Assembly (NCBI GenBank): GCA_900318405.1
Contig: ONKP01000020.1
Coordinates: 1 to 42,045, forward strand
Direction of reading: 5' to 3'
Length of the DNA: 42,045 bases
Origin: an uncultured Eubacteriales bacterium
GTDB taxonomy: Bacteria; Bacillota; Clostridia; Lachnospirales; Lachnospiraceae
The notes below the pieces were generated by a model. That model did not search any database. It worked only from the letters and a program-made list of their open reading frames with translations, and was not told the DNA's origin. The position numbers and the translations under genes are program-made. This document shows positions 771-18,042 of the stretch, in pieces. Position 1 is the first letter of the stretch; each line of letters starts with the position of its first letter.

Positions 771-1229
771 TCATTCGTTCTCCCCATAGCAAAGATCTGC
801 ATCAACCTTTTGATCAAAAACCGCCTCATCTACCACTTTGACGCATTCATCAACATGTTTTTTTATATCTTCGCCCCAAAAGTGAAGGACTACCCATCCG
901 GCACCATAAAGTTCCCTGTTCACTTCCTGATCCCTCGCCATATTCCTGGTGATCTTCCCATACCAGTATTCGCTGTTAGAACCGCGCATGATTCTTTTCT
1001 CCAACTCCGGCCAGTCCTTCCCATGGAAAAATTCGGAATCACAGAAAATGCAAATCCTGTATTTCGTAATGACAATATCAGGAGTGCCGCACAGAGCCCT
1101 CCAGTTCTTCCGGTATCGATACCCTTTGTGCCAGAGAGCCTTGCGCAGGATTAATTCCGGTTTCGTATCTCTGGATCGGATGTGCTGCATACATTTTTTT
1201 CTTTGCTCTGGTGTTAATACGTCTGACAT
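771..1229 (-). CDS. vsr: Very short patch repair endonuclease (Vsr)
   Basis: Nicks DNA 5' of the T in T:G mismatches that arise by deamination of 5-methylcytosine, so that repair restores C:G. The 152-residue protein has the usual Vsr length. Residues seen: SRDTKPE at 19-25 with Glu25, the GTPD motif with catalytic Asp51, and the SEFFHGKDW stretch with His69 and Trp73, corresponding to the active-site His and the intercalating aromatic of Escherichia coli Vsr. The C terminus is acidic. It is divergent from the cytosine methyltransferase with about 140 bases between them, the typical partnership of a vsr gene with a C5 methyltransferase. The ribosome site is weak (AGAAGA). Confidence 0.93.
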   Translation of the reverse strand: MSDVLTPEQRKKCMQHIRSRDTKPELILRKALWHKGYRYRKNWRALCGTPDIVITKYRICIFCDSEFFHGKDWPELEKRIMRGSNSEYWYGKITRNMARDQEVNRELYGAGWVVLHFWGEDIKKHVDECVKVVDEAVFDQKVDADLCYGENE

Positions 1230-1313
1230 AATATCTTCTTACATGAAAAATCACTTGGTGAAAATCTCAATCCACATTGGTGTCATTCTTCTACCCCGCC
1301 TGCAGAAAACAGA

Positions 1314-1342
1314 TTGCGTTTATGGAACTTATTTGTTAAAAT
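1314..1342 (+). promoter_or_regulatory. Candidate sigma-A promoter of the cytosine methyltransferase
   Basis: TTGCGT at 1314-1319, a 17-base spacer and TAAAAT at 1337-1342, ending 28 bases before the methyltransferase ATG. The -10 matches five of six positions; the -35 is weak. Two small dyads lie further upstream in the same divergent gap (TCAC-TTG-GTGA at 1251-1261 and a related one around 1271-1281) and could be operators. Confidence 0.45.
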
Positions 1343-1370
1343 AAAATCATAACTGCCCGGGAGGGATTTC

Positions 1371-2594
1371 ATGAAATTATCGCGTTCAAAAATAAAACAA
1401 TATATGGAGAAGGAAGGCATCAAGTCATTTACAGATCTTTCTGATAAACTCGGAATCACAAAGCAGCAAATGTCTGTTATGGTTTCCGACTCCTATTGTC
1501 CAATAAAAGCACGGGTGGTGGAACTCTGCTCACTACTCAATGTTCAGCCCATGGAAATTATTGAGCCCGATTCCCATCCAGTGCAAAAAGATTCCTCTTT
1601 TTCAGGAATTACCGCTATCGAGTTATTCGCGGGTGCGGGCGGCTGTGCCCTTGGCATGGAGGAAGCCGGTCTGAACACCGTCGAATATGTCGAATTTGAC
1701 AAGACAGCATGTGACACTCTCCGTAAAAACAGGCCTAACTGGAATGTTGTGTGCTCTGATATCCATAACGTCAGCTTTAAACAATATAAAGGCAAAGTCG
1801 ATGTTGTAACAGGAGGATTCCCCTGCCAGGCATTCTCTTATGCCGGAAAAAAGCTCGGTTTTGAAGACACCCGCGGCACCCTGTTCCATGAGCTTGCCAG
1901 ATGTATCCAGGAAGTAGAACCGAAGATGTTTTTTGCCGAAAACGTCCGGGGACTTGTGTCACACGACCACGGGCGAACGTTACAGACAATTTTAGACGTA
2001 TTTACCTCTCTCGGCTATGATGTACAGTATAAAATTCTCAACGCAGCCTATTATGGCGTTGGGCAGAAGCGCGAGCGAACTATTATTATTGGTATCCGCA
2101 AGGATCTTTCAGATAAAATTCATTTTGAATATCCGAAACCGGAAAAAAGGATGACGACCCTTCGCGAGGCTTTGAAAGACTGTCCGCCATCTGAAGGCGA
2201 AACATATTCCGAACGGAAGCGGGAGGTTCTCGACCTGGTTCCGCCCGGAGGATGCTGGGTTGACCTGCCGGAAGACATCGCCAAAGCTTATATGGGAAAG
2301 TCCTATTACAGCGGTGGCGGCCGCAGGGGTATGGCACGCAGGATATCCTGGGATGAGCCAAGCCTTACATTGACCTGCTCTCCCTCGCAAAAACAAACAG
2401 AGAGATGCCACCCTGATGAAACAAGGCCATTTACCGTCCGTGAATATGCGCGTATCCAGTCTTTCCCGGATGATTGGGAATTCTGCGGCGGAATCGGTGA
2501 CCAATACAAGCAAATCGGCAATGCGCTTCCCGTAGAACTGGCAAGACGAATCTGCGTACAGATTAAAAAAGCTTTGGAGGATGCGGAGGATTAA
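1371..2594 (+). CDS. DNA (cytosine-5-)-methyltransferase with N-terminal HTH domain
   Basis: Methylates cytosine C5 in the recognition site of the neighbouring restriction enzyme. The 407-residue protein shows all main C5-methylase motifs in order: SAM-binding motif I (ELFAGAGG, 84-91), motif IV with catalytic Cys152 in PCQ, motif VI ENV (190-192), motif VIII QKRER (232-236), motif IX (REYARIQSFP) and motif X (QIGNALP) near the C terminus. The target-recognition region lies at about 255-370. Residues 1-65 form an XRE-like helix-turn-helix (LSDKLGITKQQMS), an arrangement known in methylases that repress their own gene. A strong GGGAGGG site precedes the ATG. Its stop shares the TTAA tetranucleotide with the convergent nuclease gene. 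Recognition sequence cannot be read from sequence alone. Confidence 0.95.
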   Translation: MKLSRSKIKQYMEKEGIKSFTDLSDKLGITKQQMSVMVSDSYCPIKARVVELCSLLNVQPMEIIEPDSHPVQKDSSFSGITAIELFAGAGGCALGMEEAGLNTVEYVEFDKTACDTLRKNRPNWNVVCSDIHNVSFKQYKGKVDVVTGGFPCQAFSYAGKKLGFEDTRGTLFHELARCIQEVEPKMFFAENVRGLVSHDHGRTLQTILDVFTSLGYDVQYKILNAAYYGVGQKRERTIIIGIRKDLSDKIHFEYPKPEKRMTTLREALKDCPPSEGETYSERKREVLDLVPPGGCWVDLPEDIAKAYMGKSYYSGGGRRGMARRISWDEPSLTLTCSPSQKQTERCHPDETRPFTVREYARIQSFPDDWEFCGGIGDQYKQIGNALPVELARRICVQIKKALEDAED

Positions 2595-3313
2595 TTATCC
2601 TCCGTTTTTCTCATCTCACGGTATTTTATATCATATGCAAGTGCTCTTATTGTTTGTTGCATAGCGTATGATGAATTTATCTTGTCAGCTACCGAAGCAA
2701 AGGCATCAATCAGCTCATAATAAAAATCTTTATCCCCGGTAAGATGCTCCCAAAATTCCTGCCCGACGAGAACGCGATAGTCCTCATCTATTTTTTTGTA
2801 ATGCACAGATAATTTTTTTCTTTCACCATAAAGTACGCCGACAACGCAATCATCCGTTGAGATTCTCATCCCATTCGTTCTTGCGAGCGATTTCACGCCT
2901 TTGAAATGGTCTTCGATCGTCTTGACATCATCCTTATTTATCGTATTCGGGCCGGCTTTCAGCTGGCAATATTTATGATGCCCGTCAATTGCATCGTCAA
3001 ACTCGATATCAATCCCCTGGGTAGTAGATGCGTACCCTTTCAGGACGTCTACTGAAAAATACTGCAGCATTGTCCCAAAACTCGTGGCAATTGACGTTCC
3101 TAAAGCCCGCGGATAGATCAGGACCTTCGCCAATGACTCTGGCGAAGTATCTCCAAAAGCGAACTTTGCCAGATAGCGCCATGTAAACGGATTAATATTG
3201 AATTCATCCTCTGTAATCAGTTTTTCCGTGTTTTTCAAATGATTTTCTGCCAATTTCTCCCGAAAAAATTTCTGAGCGGCAGATAAAATAGCTTCTTTTT
3301 CTTTATCGTTCAT
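2591..3313 (-). CDS. Type II restriction endonuclease, PmeII/EcoO109I-like
   Basis: Presumed DNA cleaving partner of the adjacent methyltransferase. The 240-residue protein has a plausible PD-(D/E)XK core: Asp102/Glu104 in GIDIEF, then Gln117-Leu-Lys119 in CQLKAG. The overall pattern (NPF near residue 41, TSFG near 77, VGVLYG and GQEFW later) resembles the PmeII/EcoO109I restriction enzyme families; this is from memory of the families, not a search. I chose the ATG at 3313 because GAGGAG stands four bases before it; a longer reading with 17 extra residues starts without a ribosome site. Convergent with the methylase and overlapping it by four bases. A+T-rich compared with the operon downstream. 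Confidence 0.82.
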   Translation of the reverse strand: MNDKEKEAILSAAQKFFREKLAENHLKNTEKLITEDEFNINPFTWRYLAKFAFGDTSPESLAKVLIYPRALGTSIATSFGTMLQYFSVDVLKGYASTTQGIDIEFDDAIDGHHKYCQLKAGPNTINKDDVKTIEDHFKGVKSLARTNGMRISTDDCVVGVLYGERKKLSVHYKKIDEDYRVLVGQEFWEHLTGDKDFYYELIDAFASVADKINSSYAMQQTIRALAYDIKYREMRKTEDN

Positions 3314-3529
3314 TTTTCTCCTCGTTGGTAGCGAAACAATATATCGTTTACTTCTGTTATACAAAATCTTACCATTTTATTAATCTTTTGACTACCGCAC
3401 TTCTATTGTCGCGCAATTCAAAAAATACCCAGGATTAAATTTCACCCCCTGCAGGAGTCCGCCACAGGTCTGCAACAACTTTCTCCAACAGCCTCTAACA
3501 CCCCATATCTTTATTTCTGGGCAAATCGG

Positions 3530-10162: not shown

Positions 10163-12427
10163 TCAGATGTGGTCGTGGCAGGTTCTCGCGATGACATCGA
10201 GCTGCTGCTCTTTCGTCAGGCTGATGAACTTCACGGCGTATCCGGACACACGGATGGTGAAGTTCGCGTACTCCGGCTTCTCCGGATGCTCCATCGCGTC
10301 AACGAGTTTTTCTTTTCCGAATACATTGACGTTCAGGTGATGCGCACCGTTGATGAAGTAGCCGTCCATCACGTTGACGAGATTGCCCACCTGCTCATCC
10401 TCGCTGCGTCCGAGCGCCGATGGATTGATCGTCTGCGTATTCGAGATACCGTCGAGAGACCACTCGTAGGGGATCTTCGCCACGGAGTTGAGCGACGCCA
10501 GAAGGCCGTTCTGCTCAGCACCGTAGGACGGTGACGCGCCCGGTGCAAACGGCGTATAAGCCGCTCTTCCGTCAGGTGTGGCGCCGGTCGCCTTGCCGTA
10601 CACGACGTTGGAGGTGATCGTCAGGATCGAGGTCGTCGGCTCCGCGTTGCGGTAGGTGTGGTGCTTGCGGATCTTGGTCATGAAGCTCTTGAGGATCTCC
10701 ACACCGATCTGGTCTGCACGGTCATCGTCGTTGCCGTACTTCGGGAAATCTCCCTCCACCTTATAATCAACGACAAGTCCGTCGGCATTGCGGATCGTCT
10801 TCACCTTTGCATAGCGGATAGCGGACAGGGAATCGATCACATGGGAGAATCCTGCAATACCTGTCGCAAAGGTACGGCGCACATCGGTATCGATCAGCGC
10901 CATCTCCGCTGCCTCATAATAGTATTTATCATGCATGTACTGGATCAGATTCAGGATATTCACATAGAGTCCCGCCAGCCAGTCGAGCATTCTGTCGTAA
11001 CGGACCATCACGTCATCGTAATCCAGGTATTCCGAGGTGATCGGCGCATAGGCAGGTCCGACCTGCATGTGCTTTCCGTTTTTATCCGTGAATTTTTCAT
11101 CCACGCCGCCGTTGATCGCGTAGAGCAGTGCCTTGGCGAGGTTGGCACGTGCGCCGAAGAACTGCATCTCCTTGCCGGTCTGTGTCGCCGATACGCAGCA
11201 GCAGATGCTGTAATCGTCTCCCCAGATCGGACGCATCACGTCATCATTTTCATACTGGATCGCCGATGTGCGGACGGAAATTCTGGCCGCATAACGGCGG
11301 AAGTTCTCCGGCAGTCTCTCGGAATACAGAACCGTCAGGTTCGGTTCCGGCGCCGGTCCCATATTCTCCAGCGTGTGGAGGAATCGGTAATCATTTTTTG
11401 TCACCATGTGACGGCCGTCCTGTCCGAGTCCGGCGACCTCCAGCGTAGCCCACACCGGATCGCCTGAGAACAGCTCGTTGTAGGAAGGAATACGGGCGAA
11501 CTTCACCATGCGGAGCTTCATGACGAAGTGGTCGATCAGCTCCTGCGCTTCTTTTTCCGTAAGGGTTCCCTCGGCGAGATCACGGGCAATGTAGATGTCC
11601 AGGAAAGTTGACACACGGCCGACAGACATCGCCGCACCATTCTGGGTCTTGATGGCCGCAAGGTAACCGAAGTACAGCCACTGCACAGCCTCCTGCGCGT
11701 TCTGCGCCGGTCCGGAGATATCGAAGCCGTACACAGCCGCCATATCCTTCATGCCCTTCAGCGCGCGGATCTGGTCGGCGAGTTCCTCTCTCTGACGGAT
11801 CACATCGTCCGTCATCACGCCGCATCCGCAGTTCTTCAGGTCTTCCTTTTTCTTTGCGATCAGGTAATCGATGCCGTACAGCGCCACACGGCGGTAGTCG
11901 CCGACGATACGTCCGCGTCCGTAGGTGTCCGGAAGACCCGTCACGATATGGCAGTGACGTGCCACGCGCATCTCATCGGTATAGGCATCGAATACAGCCT
12001 GGTTGTGTGTCTTGTGATACTCCGTAAAAATTTTGTGGTACTTCGGATTGACATGGGCGCCGTAATTTTCCGCTGCCTCTTCTGCCATCTTGATACCGCC
12101 GTAGGGCATGAAAGCGCGCTTCAGCGGCTTGTCGGTCTGCAGGCCGACGATCTTCTCGAGGTTCTTTGTCTCCGAATCGATGTAGCCGGGGCCGTATGCC
12201 GTGAGCCCGGACACGACCTCTGTCTCGCACTCGAGTACGCCGCCGTTGTCTCGCTCCGCCTTTTGCAGCTTCTGCAGCTTTCCCCAGAGCACATCGGTTG
12301 CCTCTGTCGGTCCCTCGAGAAAGCTCTCGTCTCCATCGTATGCCGTATAGTTGTTCTGGATGAAATCTCTGACATTGACGTCATCCAGCCAGTGTGTACC
12401 CTTGAATCCTCTCCATGCTGTCTGCAT
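10163..12427 (-). CDS. pflB: Formate C-acetyltransferase (pyruvate formate-lyase)
   Basis: Converts pyruvate and CoA to acetyl-CoA and formate in anaerobic sugar fermentation. The 754 residues match the family length. The adjacent active-site cysteines are in [11 protein letters not shown] (about 408-410), and the glycyl-radical loop RVSGYAVKF places the radical on Gly729, 26 residues from the end. The C terminus lies in the familiar SLTKEQQ context. A clear GGGAGG ribosome site precedes the ATG. It is downstream of its activase pflA, the reverse of the usual pflB-pflA order, with 168 bases between them. Transcription probably starts at the FNR-type promoter upstream of pflA. The radical enzyme would be destroyed by oxygen, consistent with anaerobic control. 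Confidence 0.97.
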
Positions 12428-12595: not shown

Positions 12596-13336
12596 TCATG
12601 CTGTCTTCTGCAGCGCTCCCGTGAGAACTTCTTCCGCATGCCGCACGCTCTCATCCGTCGGCGGCTTCACGCCCTCGAGCGGATAGGGGATGCCAAGCTC
12701 CTGCCACTTGTATACGCCCATCGTGTGATAAGGAAGAACATCCACGCGCTGAACATTCGTAAGTGTCCGGATAAACGCGGCTTCCTTCTGAAGCTCCTCA
12801 TCACTGTCTGTCCAGCCGGGCACCAGCACCTTGCGGATCCAGATCGGTTTGCCTGTGTCCGATAGATAACGGAACATATCAAAAATGTTGTCATTGGGTT
12901 TCCCTGTGAGACGAATATGTGCTTCGCGATCGATCTGCTTGATGTCCATCAGCAGCAGATCTGTGACATCCATCAGCCGGCGGAACTGTGAAAACCACGG
13001 TTCTTCCCGTGTGAACGGTTCGCCTGCCGTATCGATGCAGGTGGAGATTCCCCGTTTTTTCGCCTTCGTGAAAAAATCGATGAGAAAATCCATCTGGAGA
13101 AGCGGTTCGCCGCCACTTACGGTGATCCCTCCGCTGCTTCCCCAGTAATTCCGGTACCTCTCTGCGCGGTCGAGCAGTTCATCTGCCTCCATCAGGTCTG
13201 CCCCGTTATCCGACCATGTGTCGGGATTGTGGCAGAACCTGCAGCGCAGCCGACAGCCTTTCAGAAATACGACAAAACGAATTCCCGGGCCGTCCACGGC
13301 CCCGAATGTCTCTATGGAATGTACCTTTGCCTTCAT
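12596..13336 (-). CDS. pflA: Pyruvate formate-lyase activating enzyme
   Basis: Radical SAM enzyme that installs the glycyl radical on pyruvate formate-lyase. The 246-residue protein has the CxxxCxxC cluster motif at Cys28, Cys32 and Cys35 (GCRLRCRFCHNPDTW), preceded by the family's VDGPGIRFVVF. The SAM-binding GGE motif follows (VSGGEPLLQ). Length agrees with PflA. It is the first gene after the FNR box and promoter at 13443-13484, with a leader of about 100 bases, and is followed by pflB on the same strand. Placing the activase before its target is uncommon. The stop overlaps an ATG of a small open frame that fills the gap to pflB (see findings). Confidence 0.96.
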   Translation of the reverse strand: MKAKVHSIETFGAVDGPGIRFVVFLKGCRLRCRFCHNPDTWSDNGADLMEADELLDRAERYRNYWGSSGGITVSGGEPLLQMDFLIDFFTKAKKRGISTCIDTAGEPFTREEPWFSQFRRLMDVTDLLLMDIKQIDREAHIRLTGKPNDNIFDMFRYLSDTGKPIWIRKVLVPGWTDSDEELQKEAAFIRTLTNVQRVDVLPYHTMGVYKWQELGIPYPLEGVKPPTDESVRHAEEVLTGALQKTA

Positions 13337-13415
13337 CCTGGCTGCTCCTTTCCGGCGGAATTCATATCATCCGCCTCCGGTCTGTGAAATTCCTGCATGA
13401 AACGCCCGACTAAAA

Positions 13416-13461
13416 CAGGGTGTCATGTCATCTCACAAGGAGAAGATAACATGACACCCTG
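13416..13461 (-). terminator. Terminator of the FNR-type regulator transcript
   Basis: A perfect 13-bp inverted repeat, CAGGGTGTCATGT at 13416-13428 and ACATGACACCCTG at 13449-13461, followed on the minus strand by TTTT at 13415-13412. It stands between the regulator gene and pflA. The -10 element of the pflA promoter lies in the loop, so only read-through RNA can form the hairpin. Confidence 0.7.
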
Positions 13462-13485
13462 ATGTGTTCCTTGATTGCAATCAAG
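13443..13485 (-). promoter_or_regulatory. FNR box and class II promoter of pflA-pflB
   Basis: TTGATTGCAATCAA at 13471-13484 is an exact match to the FNR consensus TTGAT-N4-ATCAA, and one more base on each side keeps the palindrome. Reading the minus strand, 22 bases follow the box and then TATCTT at 13448-13443, preceded by TG one base away (extended -10). This puts the box centre at about -41.5 from a start near 13436, the standard class II activator position. The -35 region has no TTGACA-like hexamer, as expected for an activator-dependent promoter. Confidence 0.85.
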
Positions 13486-13579
13486 AAACTGGCATTTATA
13501 AAATTTATTCAGCAAGACTTTTTGATGTCCCCATCTGCATAAGTCTGCGTACCGCTTTATACTACGTGTTCCCGGATCG

Positions 13580-14350
13580 CTATGCTATGTATGTATCATC
13601 CTCCGGCGCGCCCTGTGCGCGGGAGATTTCGCGGAGCGAAGAACGGCTGACCACCTGCAGGACACCACGTCCGGTACGGCGGATCGCTCCGCGATCCTGA
13701 AGCTTCGTGATATAACGGCTGACCGTCTCCGGCCGGAGCCCGATACTGGCCGCGATATCCTCAAGTTTCATGTGAATTTTTCTGTCGTTGCTGCGCGCAT
13801 CCTGATGCAGCAGGAACCGGGCGAGACGAGACTCCGGATCACGGATGGACAGAAGAACCGTTTTCTCCTTGGCCTCCGTCAGCTCCGTGCTCAGCATGGC
13901 AATGAGACTCAGCGCAGCTCCGTTGTCGCCGCTGATGACGTCCATAAACGCCTGACGGCCAATCCTGCAGAGTTCCACGTGCGTCGCACAGATGGCGGAA
14001 TAATGATAGCAGGGATCCTTCAGGAAGAGATCGTGCCAGATTGCCTGCCCGTCATGAAGGATATCCAGCAGATATTCCTCTCCGTTGGCATCAAAGCGGC
14101 AGGTCCGGACCAGCCCGCTCCGGATCACAAGAATGCTGTCGACCTTCGCCCCCTCTTCGATCAGAACCTGCCCCTTGTCATAGCTTTTGTGTTCGGCACC
14201 CGCGATCAGCTTCGCCTGTGCCTGTTCCGGAAGCTCCTGAAACAGCCTGATCTGAGAAGCGCAGAAGGTCCCGATCTTCTGAAACGGACAGTCCGGCTGA
14301 CATGTACTGAATCTGTTCATTTTTCTGTTATTATCTGTCGTCATCGGCAT
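13580..14350 (-). CDS. Crp/Fnr family regulator with FNR-type cysteines
   Basis: Likely oxygen- or redox-responsive activator of pflA-pflB. It has an N-terminal cyclic-nucleotide-binding fold and a C-terminal winged helix. Cys17, Cys21 and Cys30 stand near the N terminus and Cys128 in the HVELCRIG segment, which aligns with the fourth cluster cysteine of Escherichia coli FNR; a [4Fe-4S] sensor is therefore plausible. The recognition helix reads RPETVSRY with Glu208, Ser211 and Arg212, the same E-SR triad that reads TTGAT half sites, and a perfect such site lies just downstream. The start is uncertain: ATG 14350 overlaps the preceding gene by 20 bases; ATG 14344 and 14320 are also possible. 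Co-transcribed with the HdeD-like gene. Confidence 0.88.
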   Translation of the reverse strand: MPMTTDNNRKMNRFSTCQPDCPFQKIGTFCASQIRLFQELPEQAQAKLIAGAEHKSYDKGQVLIEEGAKVDSILVIRSGLVRTCRFDANGEEYLLDILHDGQAIWHDLFLKDPCYHYSAICATHVELCRIGRQAFMDVISGDNGAALSLIAMLSTELTEAKEKTVLLSIRDPESRLARFLLHQDARSNDRKIHMKLEDIAASIGLRPETVSRYITKLQDRGAIRRTGRGVLQVVSRSSLREISRAQGAPEDDTYIA

Positions 14351-14963
14351 CTCTCTCTACACCGGTCGTGTCTATGACATCATCGTTATGATCATCCATG
14401 AAATCGCGCGCGGACTTTCCGAAATCGGAAAGCCTGTGAACGGCGATGAGCATGGTCACACCCACATAGAGCAGTGCGATACCCACGATGATGCCGATCA
14501 TATTGACCGGATGTGCCATGGCCAGAATACCGAGAATCAGTGCAATAATGCCTGCCGCAAGCACGCCTGTCCATGCGCCGCTGCCCATGCTTCTGATATC
14601 AAACGCCGAGACGATCCCCATAATGCCGTATACCATCAGGATCAGTCCGACAATAACCATGGCGAAAACGATAAAACCGATCGGATTGATGAGCAGCAGA
14701 ATGCCGAACAGAATATTGATACCGCCGAGTACACCCGACATATAGCGTTCCATCGGCAGAACCGCCGCTGAACCTCCCACAAGGAAGAAAATGCCTCCTG
14801 CCGCCAGTCCGGCGCCGAAGATCCGGAGTATTACCGCTTCCGTGTCCGACGGCCAGACAAGAAACAGTACACCGATAACAATCTCTATGACAGCCAGAAT
14901 GGTCATTCTCATTTTGTTTCTCTGCAGATAGCCATGCCATTCATCTCTGTTGAAAAAATGCAT
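14331..14963 (-). CDS. HdeD-like (DUF308) membrane protein
   Basis: Integral membrane protein of 210 residues with about six transmembrane segments in the repeating pattern of the HdeD/DUF308 family, including paired GIxxLIxGI-like stretches and the motif LLINPIGF. HdeD in Escherichia coli is linked to acid resistance; the role here is unknown. The last 35 residues are highly charged, rich in Asp and Arg. I start at the ATG at 14963, because GGAGGT lies seven bases upstream, not at the GTG three codons earlier that overlaps that site. The ribosome site overlaps the stop region of the upstream hydrolase gene, and the 3' end overlaps the FNR-type regulator, so the three genes are coupled. Confidence 0.82.
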   Translation of the reverse strand: MHFFNRDEWHGYLQRNKMRMTILAVIEIVIGVLFLVWPSDTEAVILRIFGAGLAAGGIFFLVGGSAAVLPMERYMSGVLGGINILFGILLLINPIGFIVFAMVIVGLILMVYGIMGIVSAFDIRSMGSGAWTGVLAAGIIALILGILAMAHPVNMIGIIVGIALLYVGVTMLIAVHRLSDFGKSARDFMDDHNDDVIDTTGVERDADDDR

Positions 14964-14968
14964 GCTTT

Positions 14969-15919
14969 TCACCTCCGTTCATGCTTCCCTGCACAGTGGG
15001 ACTCAAAAAATGCCAGAAAATCACTGTCCACCTTATCATGATCCAGTTCGTTGAGGATCTCATGCCTGTCGCCCGGGTAGATCACCAGCGTCACATCCGA
15101 AATGCCGGCCTTGCGGTACTGTTCAGCCGCCTTAGCCGGACCTTCACCCCTGTTGCCGACAGGATCGTCACCGCCGGAAGCGATAAGAATCGGCAGGTCA
15201 TGCGGAATCTTTTCGATCTCCCGGGGATCCTCCGCCCATTTCAGGCCCTTGAACAGATTATAGTACCCGTTCAGCGTAAACATGAAATTATTCCACGGAT
15301 TGGCATTATAGGCATCTACGATCGCCTCGTCCTTCGTCAGCCAGTCATTTTTTGTGCGGGCCGGCTCGAAGGCATTGTTGTAGGAGCCGAGCGCCATGTT
15401 GTCGATCGTTTTGCTGCGGTGATCCCATCCCTGAAAAACAGCCTTGATCCTGCAGAGTGCCATGGCGGTGTTCAGCATCGCCGTATCCGTATAGCCAGTG
15501 CCGGAAATGATCACGCCGGCCAGTCCCTCTCCGTACATGGTGATGTACTGCCGGAGCAGGAAGGATCCCATGCTGTGTCCCAGCATAAAATACGGGACAT
15601 CCGGATATTTTTTCTCCGTCATCACACGGAGCGCCTGAATGTCATGGATCACGCACATATTGCCGTTTCCTCTGGCAAAATAGCCATGGCTGTCATCGCT
15701 CACAACGGACGCGCCATGGCCCAGGTGATCGTTGCCGACCACGTAATAGCCGCGCGCCGCAAGAAAATTGGCGAAGCGGTCATAGCGGTTGATAAATTCG
15801 ACCATACCGTGCAGGATCTGGACGACGCCCTTTACCTCGCCTTCCGGTTTCCACTCGATCGCGTGGATCTGCGTAATGCCGTCAGATGATGGATAATTGA
15901 AATCTTTCTTTGCTGTCAT
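14969..15919 (-). CDS. Alpha/beta hydrolase (monoacylglycerol lipase / lysophospholipase-like)
   Basis: Serine hydrolase of 316 residues in the PldB/serine aminopeptidase S33 group, which includes monoglyceride lipases. The nucleophile elbow GHSMGS gives Ser116; the acid is in GGDDPVG and the catalytic His in PGDRHEILNE near the C terminus. The oxyanion region reads LHGMVEFINRYD and is followed by NDHLGHG. No signal peptide, so cytoplasmic. Start chosen at 15919, with GGGAGG nine bases before it; the frame is open further upstream but without a ribosome site. First gene of a run with the HdeD-like protein and the FNR-type regulator. Natural substrate not determinable. Confidence 0.86.
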   Translation of the reverse strand: MTAKKDFNYPSSDGITQIHAIEWKPEGEVKGVVQILHGMVEFINRYDRFANFLAARGYYVVGNDHLGHGASVVSDDSHGYFARGNGNMCVIHDIQALRVMTEKKYPDVPYFMLGHSMGSFLLRQYITMYGEGLAGVIISGTGYTDTAMLNTAMALCRIKAVFQGWDHRSKTIDNMALGSYNNAFEPARTKNDWLTKDEAIVDAYNANPWNNFMFTLNGYYNLFKGLKWAEDPREIEKIPHDLPILIASGGDDPVGNRGEGPAKAAEQYRKAGISDVTLVIYPGDRHEILNELDHDKVDSDFLAFFESHCAGKHERR

Positions 15920-17969: not shown

Positions 17970-18042
17970 TGCGCCATCAGGGACTCGAACCCTGGACAAA
18001 TAGATTAAGAGTCTACTGCTCTACCAACTGAGCTAATGGCGC
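17970..18042 (-). tRNA. tRNA-Lys (anticodon CTT)
   Basis: A 73-base cloverleaf on the minus strand. The acceptor stem GCGCCAT pairs with ATGGCGC. The D arm is GCTC-AGTTGGTA-GAGC. The anticodon stem GTAGA/TCTAT encloses the loop CTCTTAA with anticodon CTT. The T arm is CAGGG-TTCGAGT-CCCTG. The discriminator base is A, and CCA is not encoded. Confidence 0.97.

Follow-up and report, generated by a model that had tools for sequence, protein, structure and literature searches.

A predicted FNR-type pflA-pflB promoter probably nested in the intrinsic terminator of its regulator gene in Lachnospiraceae

The stretch of DNA analyzed here, termed the window, comprises 42,045 nucleotides (contig ONKP01000020.1 of assembly GCA_900318405.1) from an uncultured bacterium of the Lachnospiraceae, whose assembly holds 2.18 Mb and is 91.66% complete. 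On the minus strand a gene for a DUF308/HdeD-like membrane protein is followed by a gene for a CRP/FNR-type regulator, a gap of 243 bp, pflA and pflB (Table 1). According to the coordinates the end of the DUF308/HdeD-like gene overlaps the start of the regulator gene, and the two are probably carried on one transcript. Elsewhere in the window, at 771-3364, frames resembling a Vsr-type endonuclease, a DNA cytosine methyltransferase and an adjoining restriction-type gene were noted by eye.

Table 1. Genes and predicted regulatory elements of the pfl locus in the window, in the direction of transcription.
Feature	Position	Strand	Evidence or remark
DUF308/HdeD-like membrane protein gene	14331-14972	-	Pfam DUF308
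CRP/FNR-type regulator gene	13580-14350	-	Pfam cNMP_binding and HTH_Crp_2 above cut-off; alignments
FNR box, TTGATTGCAATCAA	13471-13484	-	Perfect TTGAT-N4-ATCAA; centre at -41.5 relative to the predicted start
5' arm of the predicted intrinsic terminator of the regulator gene	13443-13461	-	Folding, generic scan, covariation in seven species; perfect part 13449-13461
Extended -10, TGTTATCTT	13443-13451	-	TGT-TATCTT, hexamer 13448-13443; also forms the loop-side end of the 5' arm
Predicted transcription start of pflA-pflB (G)	13436	-	Predicted from box/-10 spacing; in the hairpin loop
3' arm of the predicted terminator	13416-13434	-	Folding, generic scan, covariation; perfect part 13416-13428
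U-tract	13412-13415	-	TTTT, followed by AGTC
pflA, pyruvate formate-lyase-activating enzyme	12596-13336	-	NCBIfam TIGR02493, 309.5 bits (cut-off 231.75)
pflB, formate C-acetyltransferase	10163-12427	-	NCBIfam TIGR01255, 1153.3 bits (cut-off 994.2)

The gap between the regulator gene and pflA was read in a first-pass annotation as an FNR-activated promoter lying inside the terminator of the regulator gene, and each of the elements was found at the place assigned to it: the perfect FNR box, a spacer of exactly 22 bases (13470-13449), the -10 hexamer with TGT in front of it, and the perfect 13-bp inverted repeat with TTTT behind it. When G-U pairs were counted the stem extended to 19 pairs (13461-13443 with 13434-13416), longer than the perfect repeat, around a loop of 8 nt. 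The minimum free energy of the 76-nt stretch was -32.9 kcal/mol (z = -4.70), and one of 200 shuffles was equally stable. With 19 pairs in the stem, the -10 forms the upper part of the 5' arm, both ending on the same base, and G13436, the predicted +1, falls in the loop, as had been proposed. The 3' arm begins at +3 and would enter the pflA leader RNA from about that position; the whole hairpin spans -25 to +20 with the predicted start taken as 0. A generic sigma-70 scan did not list the promoter in the window, probably because it has no -35 hexamer; the scan listed this terminator with 19 pairs, but its total of five terminators did not exceed that in shuffles (mean 4.3). Another strong inverted repeat (CCGGAGGCGGA...TTCCGCCGG) is located at 13352-13380, directly upstream of the pflA ribosome site, and carries no U-tract.

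The regulator of the window has cysteines at residues 17, 21, 30 and 128 and a recognition helix reading R-P-E-T-V-S-R. The E-x-x-S-R reading triad claimed for it was confirmed, as all 45 aligned rows have E-T-V/I-S-R, a helix that would be fitting for an FNR box. Four candidate cluster cysteines are thus present in the window regulator, whereas the N-terminal ones were only partly kept in the group of nested loci described below: among the 34 N-terminal residues covered, the regulators of loci L039, L040, L042, L043, and L044 have two cysteines, in addition to one near residue 128. Against the NCBIfam model for Fnr (NF008365) the window regulator scored 52.1 bits; the cut-off is 228, and since it was missed we call the regulator FNR-like and do not file it as Fnr. 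The best solved relative by sequence was DNR with 66.6 bits, and FNR reached 42.3 at best. The label "FNR" is to be read as referring to the match of the binding site and to the E-T-V/I-S-R helix, and oxygen sensing by the regulator is plausible. Three coriobacterial regulators (L067, L073, and L078) have two cysteines in all and adjoin pfl with one-mismatch boxes; it is possible that Fe-S sensing was lost in them.

The element is more than a chance match, as the 2.18-Mb assembly contains two perfect FNR boxes, including that of the window. The second one lies across a stop codon and a gap of 30 bp within what we take to be a cobalamin operon, and it is poorly placed for a promoter, as a start 41.5 nt further on would land inside the next gene. 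A wider FNR-box regulon was considered and is not supported by the perfect boxes, the sole other one lying at a gene end and short gap inside an apparent operon. Boxes with at most one mismatch numbered 72, both perfect ones included, against 11 in a reversed control that was not codon-matched. The combination of box, 22 nt and TGnTAnnnT had no further site in the genome at zero or one mismatch; at two mismatches there were three further sites against two in the reversed control. When TGnTAnnnT and the last eight letters of the window element were held and the other letters behind the box shuffled, none of 300 shuffles folded equally well. A search of the whole window with Rfam at gathering score had a tRNA (17970-18042) as its only match. 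A ZTP ("pfl motif") riboswitch or other known leader RNA was accordingly rejected, Rfam having no such match at gathering score. Below threshold, eight matches far beneath their gathering scores were found at 13300-13600 in the window, six of them miRNA families on the hairpin, and ten pfl loci had a single weak match, BcKCsr2 in L004 (20.8 bits against 40).

The regulator alignment, used to scan species genomes, identified 44 loci, 36 of which have pflA downstream on the strand of the regulator; L041, L045, L049, L050, L060, L061, L062, and L077 were left out of the promoter set. Adding the window as well as L008 and L009, two pflA loci that have no regulator upstream, brought the set to 39 loci from Lachnospiraceae, Eubacteriaceae and Coriobacteriia, thus spanning Bacillota and Coriobacteriia; several rows are close kin, and the independent cases are fewer than 39. 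The FNR box was perfect in 30 loci, had one mismatch in eight and two mismatches in one. TAnnnT followed the box at exactly 22 nt in 37 of the 39 loci, while any other spacing between 14 and 33 was seen in zero to three. Only L065, where the box taken is probably not that of the promoter, and L079, with a spacing of 23, deviated. The -10 was preceded by TGn in 19 of the 39 loci. An unexplained extension, RGAA, stands immediately 3' of the box in 32 of them (13467-13470 in the window, about -34 to -31). In L048 (3690-3740) the one-mismatch box centres a longer palindrome, GGGAGATGTTCCTTGAC...ATCAAGGAACATCTCCC, which has no T-run.

The nested arrangement was found in seven species of five genera, all rumen and gut bacteria: the window, L038, L039, L040, L042, L043, and L044. 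All seven have a perfect box with TGnTAnnnT at 22 nt; in L044 the element reads GTGC-TATCGT, with TG at the first two places. The register is common to them, the 5' arm lying in the spacer up to TG/-10 and the 3' arm reaching about 20-30 nt into the leader. The hairpin of L040 was placed by folding and by eye, as a terminator finder made no call there for want of Ts. The comparison of this gap among relatives, put forward in the first-pass annotation as a check, found box, -10 and hairpin kept together in seven species. In L039 (5232-5333) the gap is very compact: box, promoter, terminator and ribosome site occupy 97 nt upstream of pflA, and the TGA stop codon of the regulator gene lies inside the FNR box.

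The arm sequences vary among the seven species and their complementarity is kept. In the alignment the 12-pair helix had 89.3% of its cells paired against a shuffled mean of 77.9%, and double changes occurred in eight of the 12 pairs against 3.5 in shuffles. None of 500 shuffles was as high on four of five measures, kinship inflating this test, and 79 of 500 were as high on the fifth, further pair types. Sliding the helix partner by one to three columns lowered pairing to 23-57%, a contrast favoured by the helix having been picked on the same seven sequences. The double changes are the stronger sign in this comparison, and G-U cells among the one-sided changes would fit an RNA rather than a DNA operator. 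Element-wise shuffles with TGnTAnnnT and the last eight letters held were never as stable in six of the species (0/300 each) and once in L044 (1/300).

A covariance model gave the seven nested elements 74-89 bits and other promoter regions at most 32.1 bits (54 sources, some duplicated); the antisense strand of L038 reached 38.4 bits. At E <= 0.01 it matched three of 397 genomes of the family, that of the window and, judged by contig place, those of L038 and L040. Relatives keeping the hairpin without box and -10, a finding that would have spoken against the proposal, did not appear among these 397 genomes at that threshold, the model being biased against such cousins by scoring the box too and by strict filters. 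In the genera of L038, L040, and L044 a strong match was found in the known genome only (one of five, one of six and one of 13 genomes); the genus with one in six also had a weak match of 28 bits, L105. In the genus of L039 the box/-10 pattern was present in four of 62 genomes, namely those of L039, L042, L043, and L098. The pattern matches L035, L036, L037, and L098 have no nested hairpin. Searches of the genera and the family added no species to the six relatives, and the spread is patchy, with seven species in five genera.

In the tree of regulators the seven nested loci and L041 form one clade with support of 99/93, within which the order of the window, L038 and L041 is unresolved. L041 (2576-8524) shares the gene order of the window without pflA-pflB, box or nested hairpin; identities are 79% for a hydrolase, 39% for HdeD, 52% for the regulator, 69% for a HAD phosphatase and 62% for a glycosidase, and its genome appears to belong to the genus of the window.

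An intrinsic terminator is expected to have a stable hairpin with G-C pairs, and such a hairpin was found by folding, the generic scan, covariation and shuffles. The first-pass annotation had claimed that the read-through RNA forms the hairpin and that the RNA born at the promoter cannot. Predicted folding agrees with this in all seven species: the last 10 nt of the 3' arm had a mean pairing probability of 0.95-1.00 in the read-through RNA against 0.19-0.47 in RNA from +1, the end of the arm in L040 having been set by hand. The 5' arm of the window element stops at -7; RNAs starting a few nucleotides off the predicted +1 would therefore lack it as well. From 60 nt before the regulator stop to the box no other terminator was called in six of the seven nested loci. 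L042 has a second candidate at the stop codon of the regulator gene (-17.2 kcal/mol, TTTTTCC), and the nested terminator may be redundant there. The U-tracts are short, with TTTT in the window, TCTTT in L038 and TTCTGT in L040. At least four Ts directly follow the stem in four of the seven species, and L044 has TTTATTT; the tract was fair in five species and poor in L038 and L040. Given these short tracts, termination may be poor in some of the nested species.

A sister clade of 11 loci (L046, L047, L051, L057, L068, L070-L072, and L074-L076) has the same box and -10, with a terminator located in the pflA leader, wholly downstream; in L068 and L070 it begins at -3. The 3' arm was predicted to pair alike in read-through and initiated RNA (0.67-1.00), and no terminator was called from 60 nt before the regulator stop to the box in any of the 11 loci. 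Transcripts of pfl must cross the terminator in this clade, and a separation of regulator from pfl in the nested style is not universal. An antiterminator selective for the start site was considered for the sister clade and dropped, since folding of read-through and initiated RNA did not differ notably. The initial part of the leader is conserved among L068, L070, L072, L074, L075, and L076; it includes a purine-rich stretch and a short frame opening with ATG, whose first residues are MAEEKPL, MAEQRTV, MAEYRTV, MTEDRTV, MADHRTV, and MAEHQTV, and this frame overlaps the 5' arm of the terminator. By analogy these six leaders are candidates for an ampC-like leader attenuator, possibly with a leader peptide. 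With one promoter in common, the nested and the sister clade may have arrived at different answers to the same problem of neighbouring genes. Among the other 19 regulator loci, mostly of Coriobacteriia, a terminator between box and pflA was called in L064 and L081 only, weak or irregular, and mostly weak calls upstream of the box were made in 12.

Comparison of the sequences brings out the parts of the element, their register, the conservation of box and -10 and the covariation of the stem; together with folding it supports the reading of an FNR-activated promoter nested inside the terminator of its regulator gene. We consider it probable that a class II FNR-type promoter of pflA-pflB lies within this intrinsic terminator and that termination thereby becomes selective for the start site. 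The FNR-type regulator encoded just upstream would activate the class II promoter of the 74-bp element, we infer under anoxia. The promoter would split the hairpin, so that spacer and -10 contain the 5' arm, the loop lies at the start, and the leader contains the 3' arm and U-tract. A polymerase coming from the regulator gene would transcribe both arms and terminate, and we propose that basal expression of the regulator therefore does not drive pfl. A polymerase from the activated promoter would never transcribe the 5' arm, would form no hairpin and would read into pflA-pflB. Since the 3' arm is predicted to be paired in the read-through RNA and less so in RNA from +1, the regulator RNA is expected to stop and the pfl RNA to continue. 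The spacer of a class II activator may place little demand on sequence, which would be why a terminator arm fits there.

The same hairpin could mainly serve to stabilise the 3' end of the regulator mRNA or as a site for its processing, with only partial termination, the promoter being real and the nesting a consequence of the compact gap. The U-tracts in the nested loci, which are short and in L038 and L040 poor, would suit such a role, as would the second terminator candidate of L042 and gaps as compact as that of L039, where 97 nt suffice and the box runs over the stop codon of the regulator gene. However, four of the seven species do have at least four Ts behind the stem, TTTATTT follows it in L044, and the covariation fixes the register of the arms relative to the -10; we regard this explanation as unlikely. 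Recycling of polymerase is distinctly less probable still. Here the terminated polymerase would stay and restart at the nested promoter when the regulator is active, coupling transcription of the regulator to that of pfl. In the six elements called by the finder 21-30 nt separate the T-run from the predicted +1, and polymerase that has been released at a terminator is described as mostly remaining on the DNA and frequently restarting, but the same source has restart usually proceeding in the reverse direction (PMC6978322).

We give very little credence to the 3' arm working in the pflA leader, by pairing near the ribosome site, with the full hairpin secondary. The arm can pair downstream in the initiated leader of some species, e.g., L042 and L039, but the leader folds differ among the seven species and it is the straddling helix that covaries. 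Lowest of all we place a DNA palindrome acting as operator for another regulator, already disfavoured: the 13-bp repeat is perfect in the window, but the arms of the seven species have different sequences that still pair with each other, in part through G-U.

An overlap of terminator and promoter is already known from ampC/frd, and start-site-dependent hairpins are known at the level of translation. E. coli FNR class II promoters have TTGAT-N4-ATCAA at -41.5 together with a -10, and their activator has an E-x-x-S-R helix. The element described here resembles them in box, -10, helix and the distance of -41.5 from the predicted start; it differs in having a regulator only remotely similar to E. 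coli Fnr (52.1 bits, cut-off 228) and a spacer and -10 that also serve as one arm of a terminator. In IS50/IS10 and T4 gene e, RNA from outside has both arms of a hairpin and RNA started inside lacks the 5' arm. That hairpin hides a ribosome site, whereas here it is a predicted terminator with an activator-dependent inner promoter. Passages of PMC4265352 do not describe such start-site-dependent hairpins. The ampC attenuator works through a ribosome mechanism. In the E. coli frd operon the terminator is the ampC attenuator and the ampC promoter lies within the last gene of frd (PMC6045580). The present case is similar in that an upstream terminator overlaps the promoter region of the downstream gene. 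Unlike in ampC/frd, where the terminator lies wholly in the downstream leader and the transcripts of ampC itself are attenuated too, the promoter of the window splits the hairpin, and RNA started there should escape it. Leaders L068, L070, L072, and L074-L076 of the sister clade match ampC more closely than the nested element does. In the Gram-positive Streptococcus suis the gene of the FNR-like regulator FlpS is located directly upstream of its target arcABC (PMC5039431). This layout of regulator next to target is shared; the target operon differs, and the available passages of that paper make no mention of a nested terminator. Searches of open-licence PMC papers listed no report of a promoter nested in or splitting a terminator, and in open-licence PMC titles and beginnings of abstracts none of this regulator with pfl in Lachnospiraceae.

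The arrangement may stand for a self-insulating promoter, which evolution keeps in the terminator of its own regulator since the spacer places almost no demand on sequence and can hold a terminator arm, the RNAs being told apart by their start; on this wider proposal we are evenly divided. The same principle is possibly present, unnoticed, at other activator-driven genes. Annotation of promoters and of terminators is usually kept separate, and if the reading is true it suggests scanning for promoters with the start site in a terminator loop. A single 74-bp element would then end one gene and start the next, and the start site by itself would distinguish the two RNAs, with no need for a protein antiterminator. 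This would explain how the regulator gene can have its target as immediate downstream neighbour and yet not drive it.
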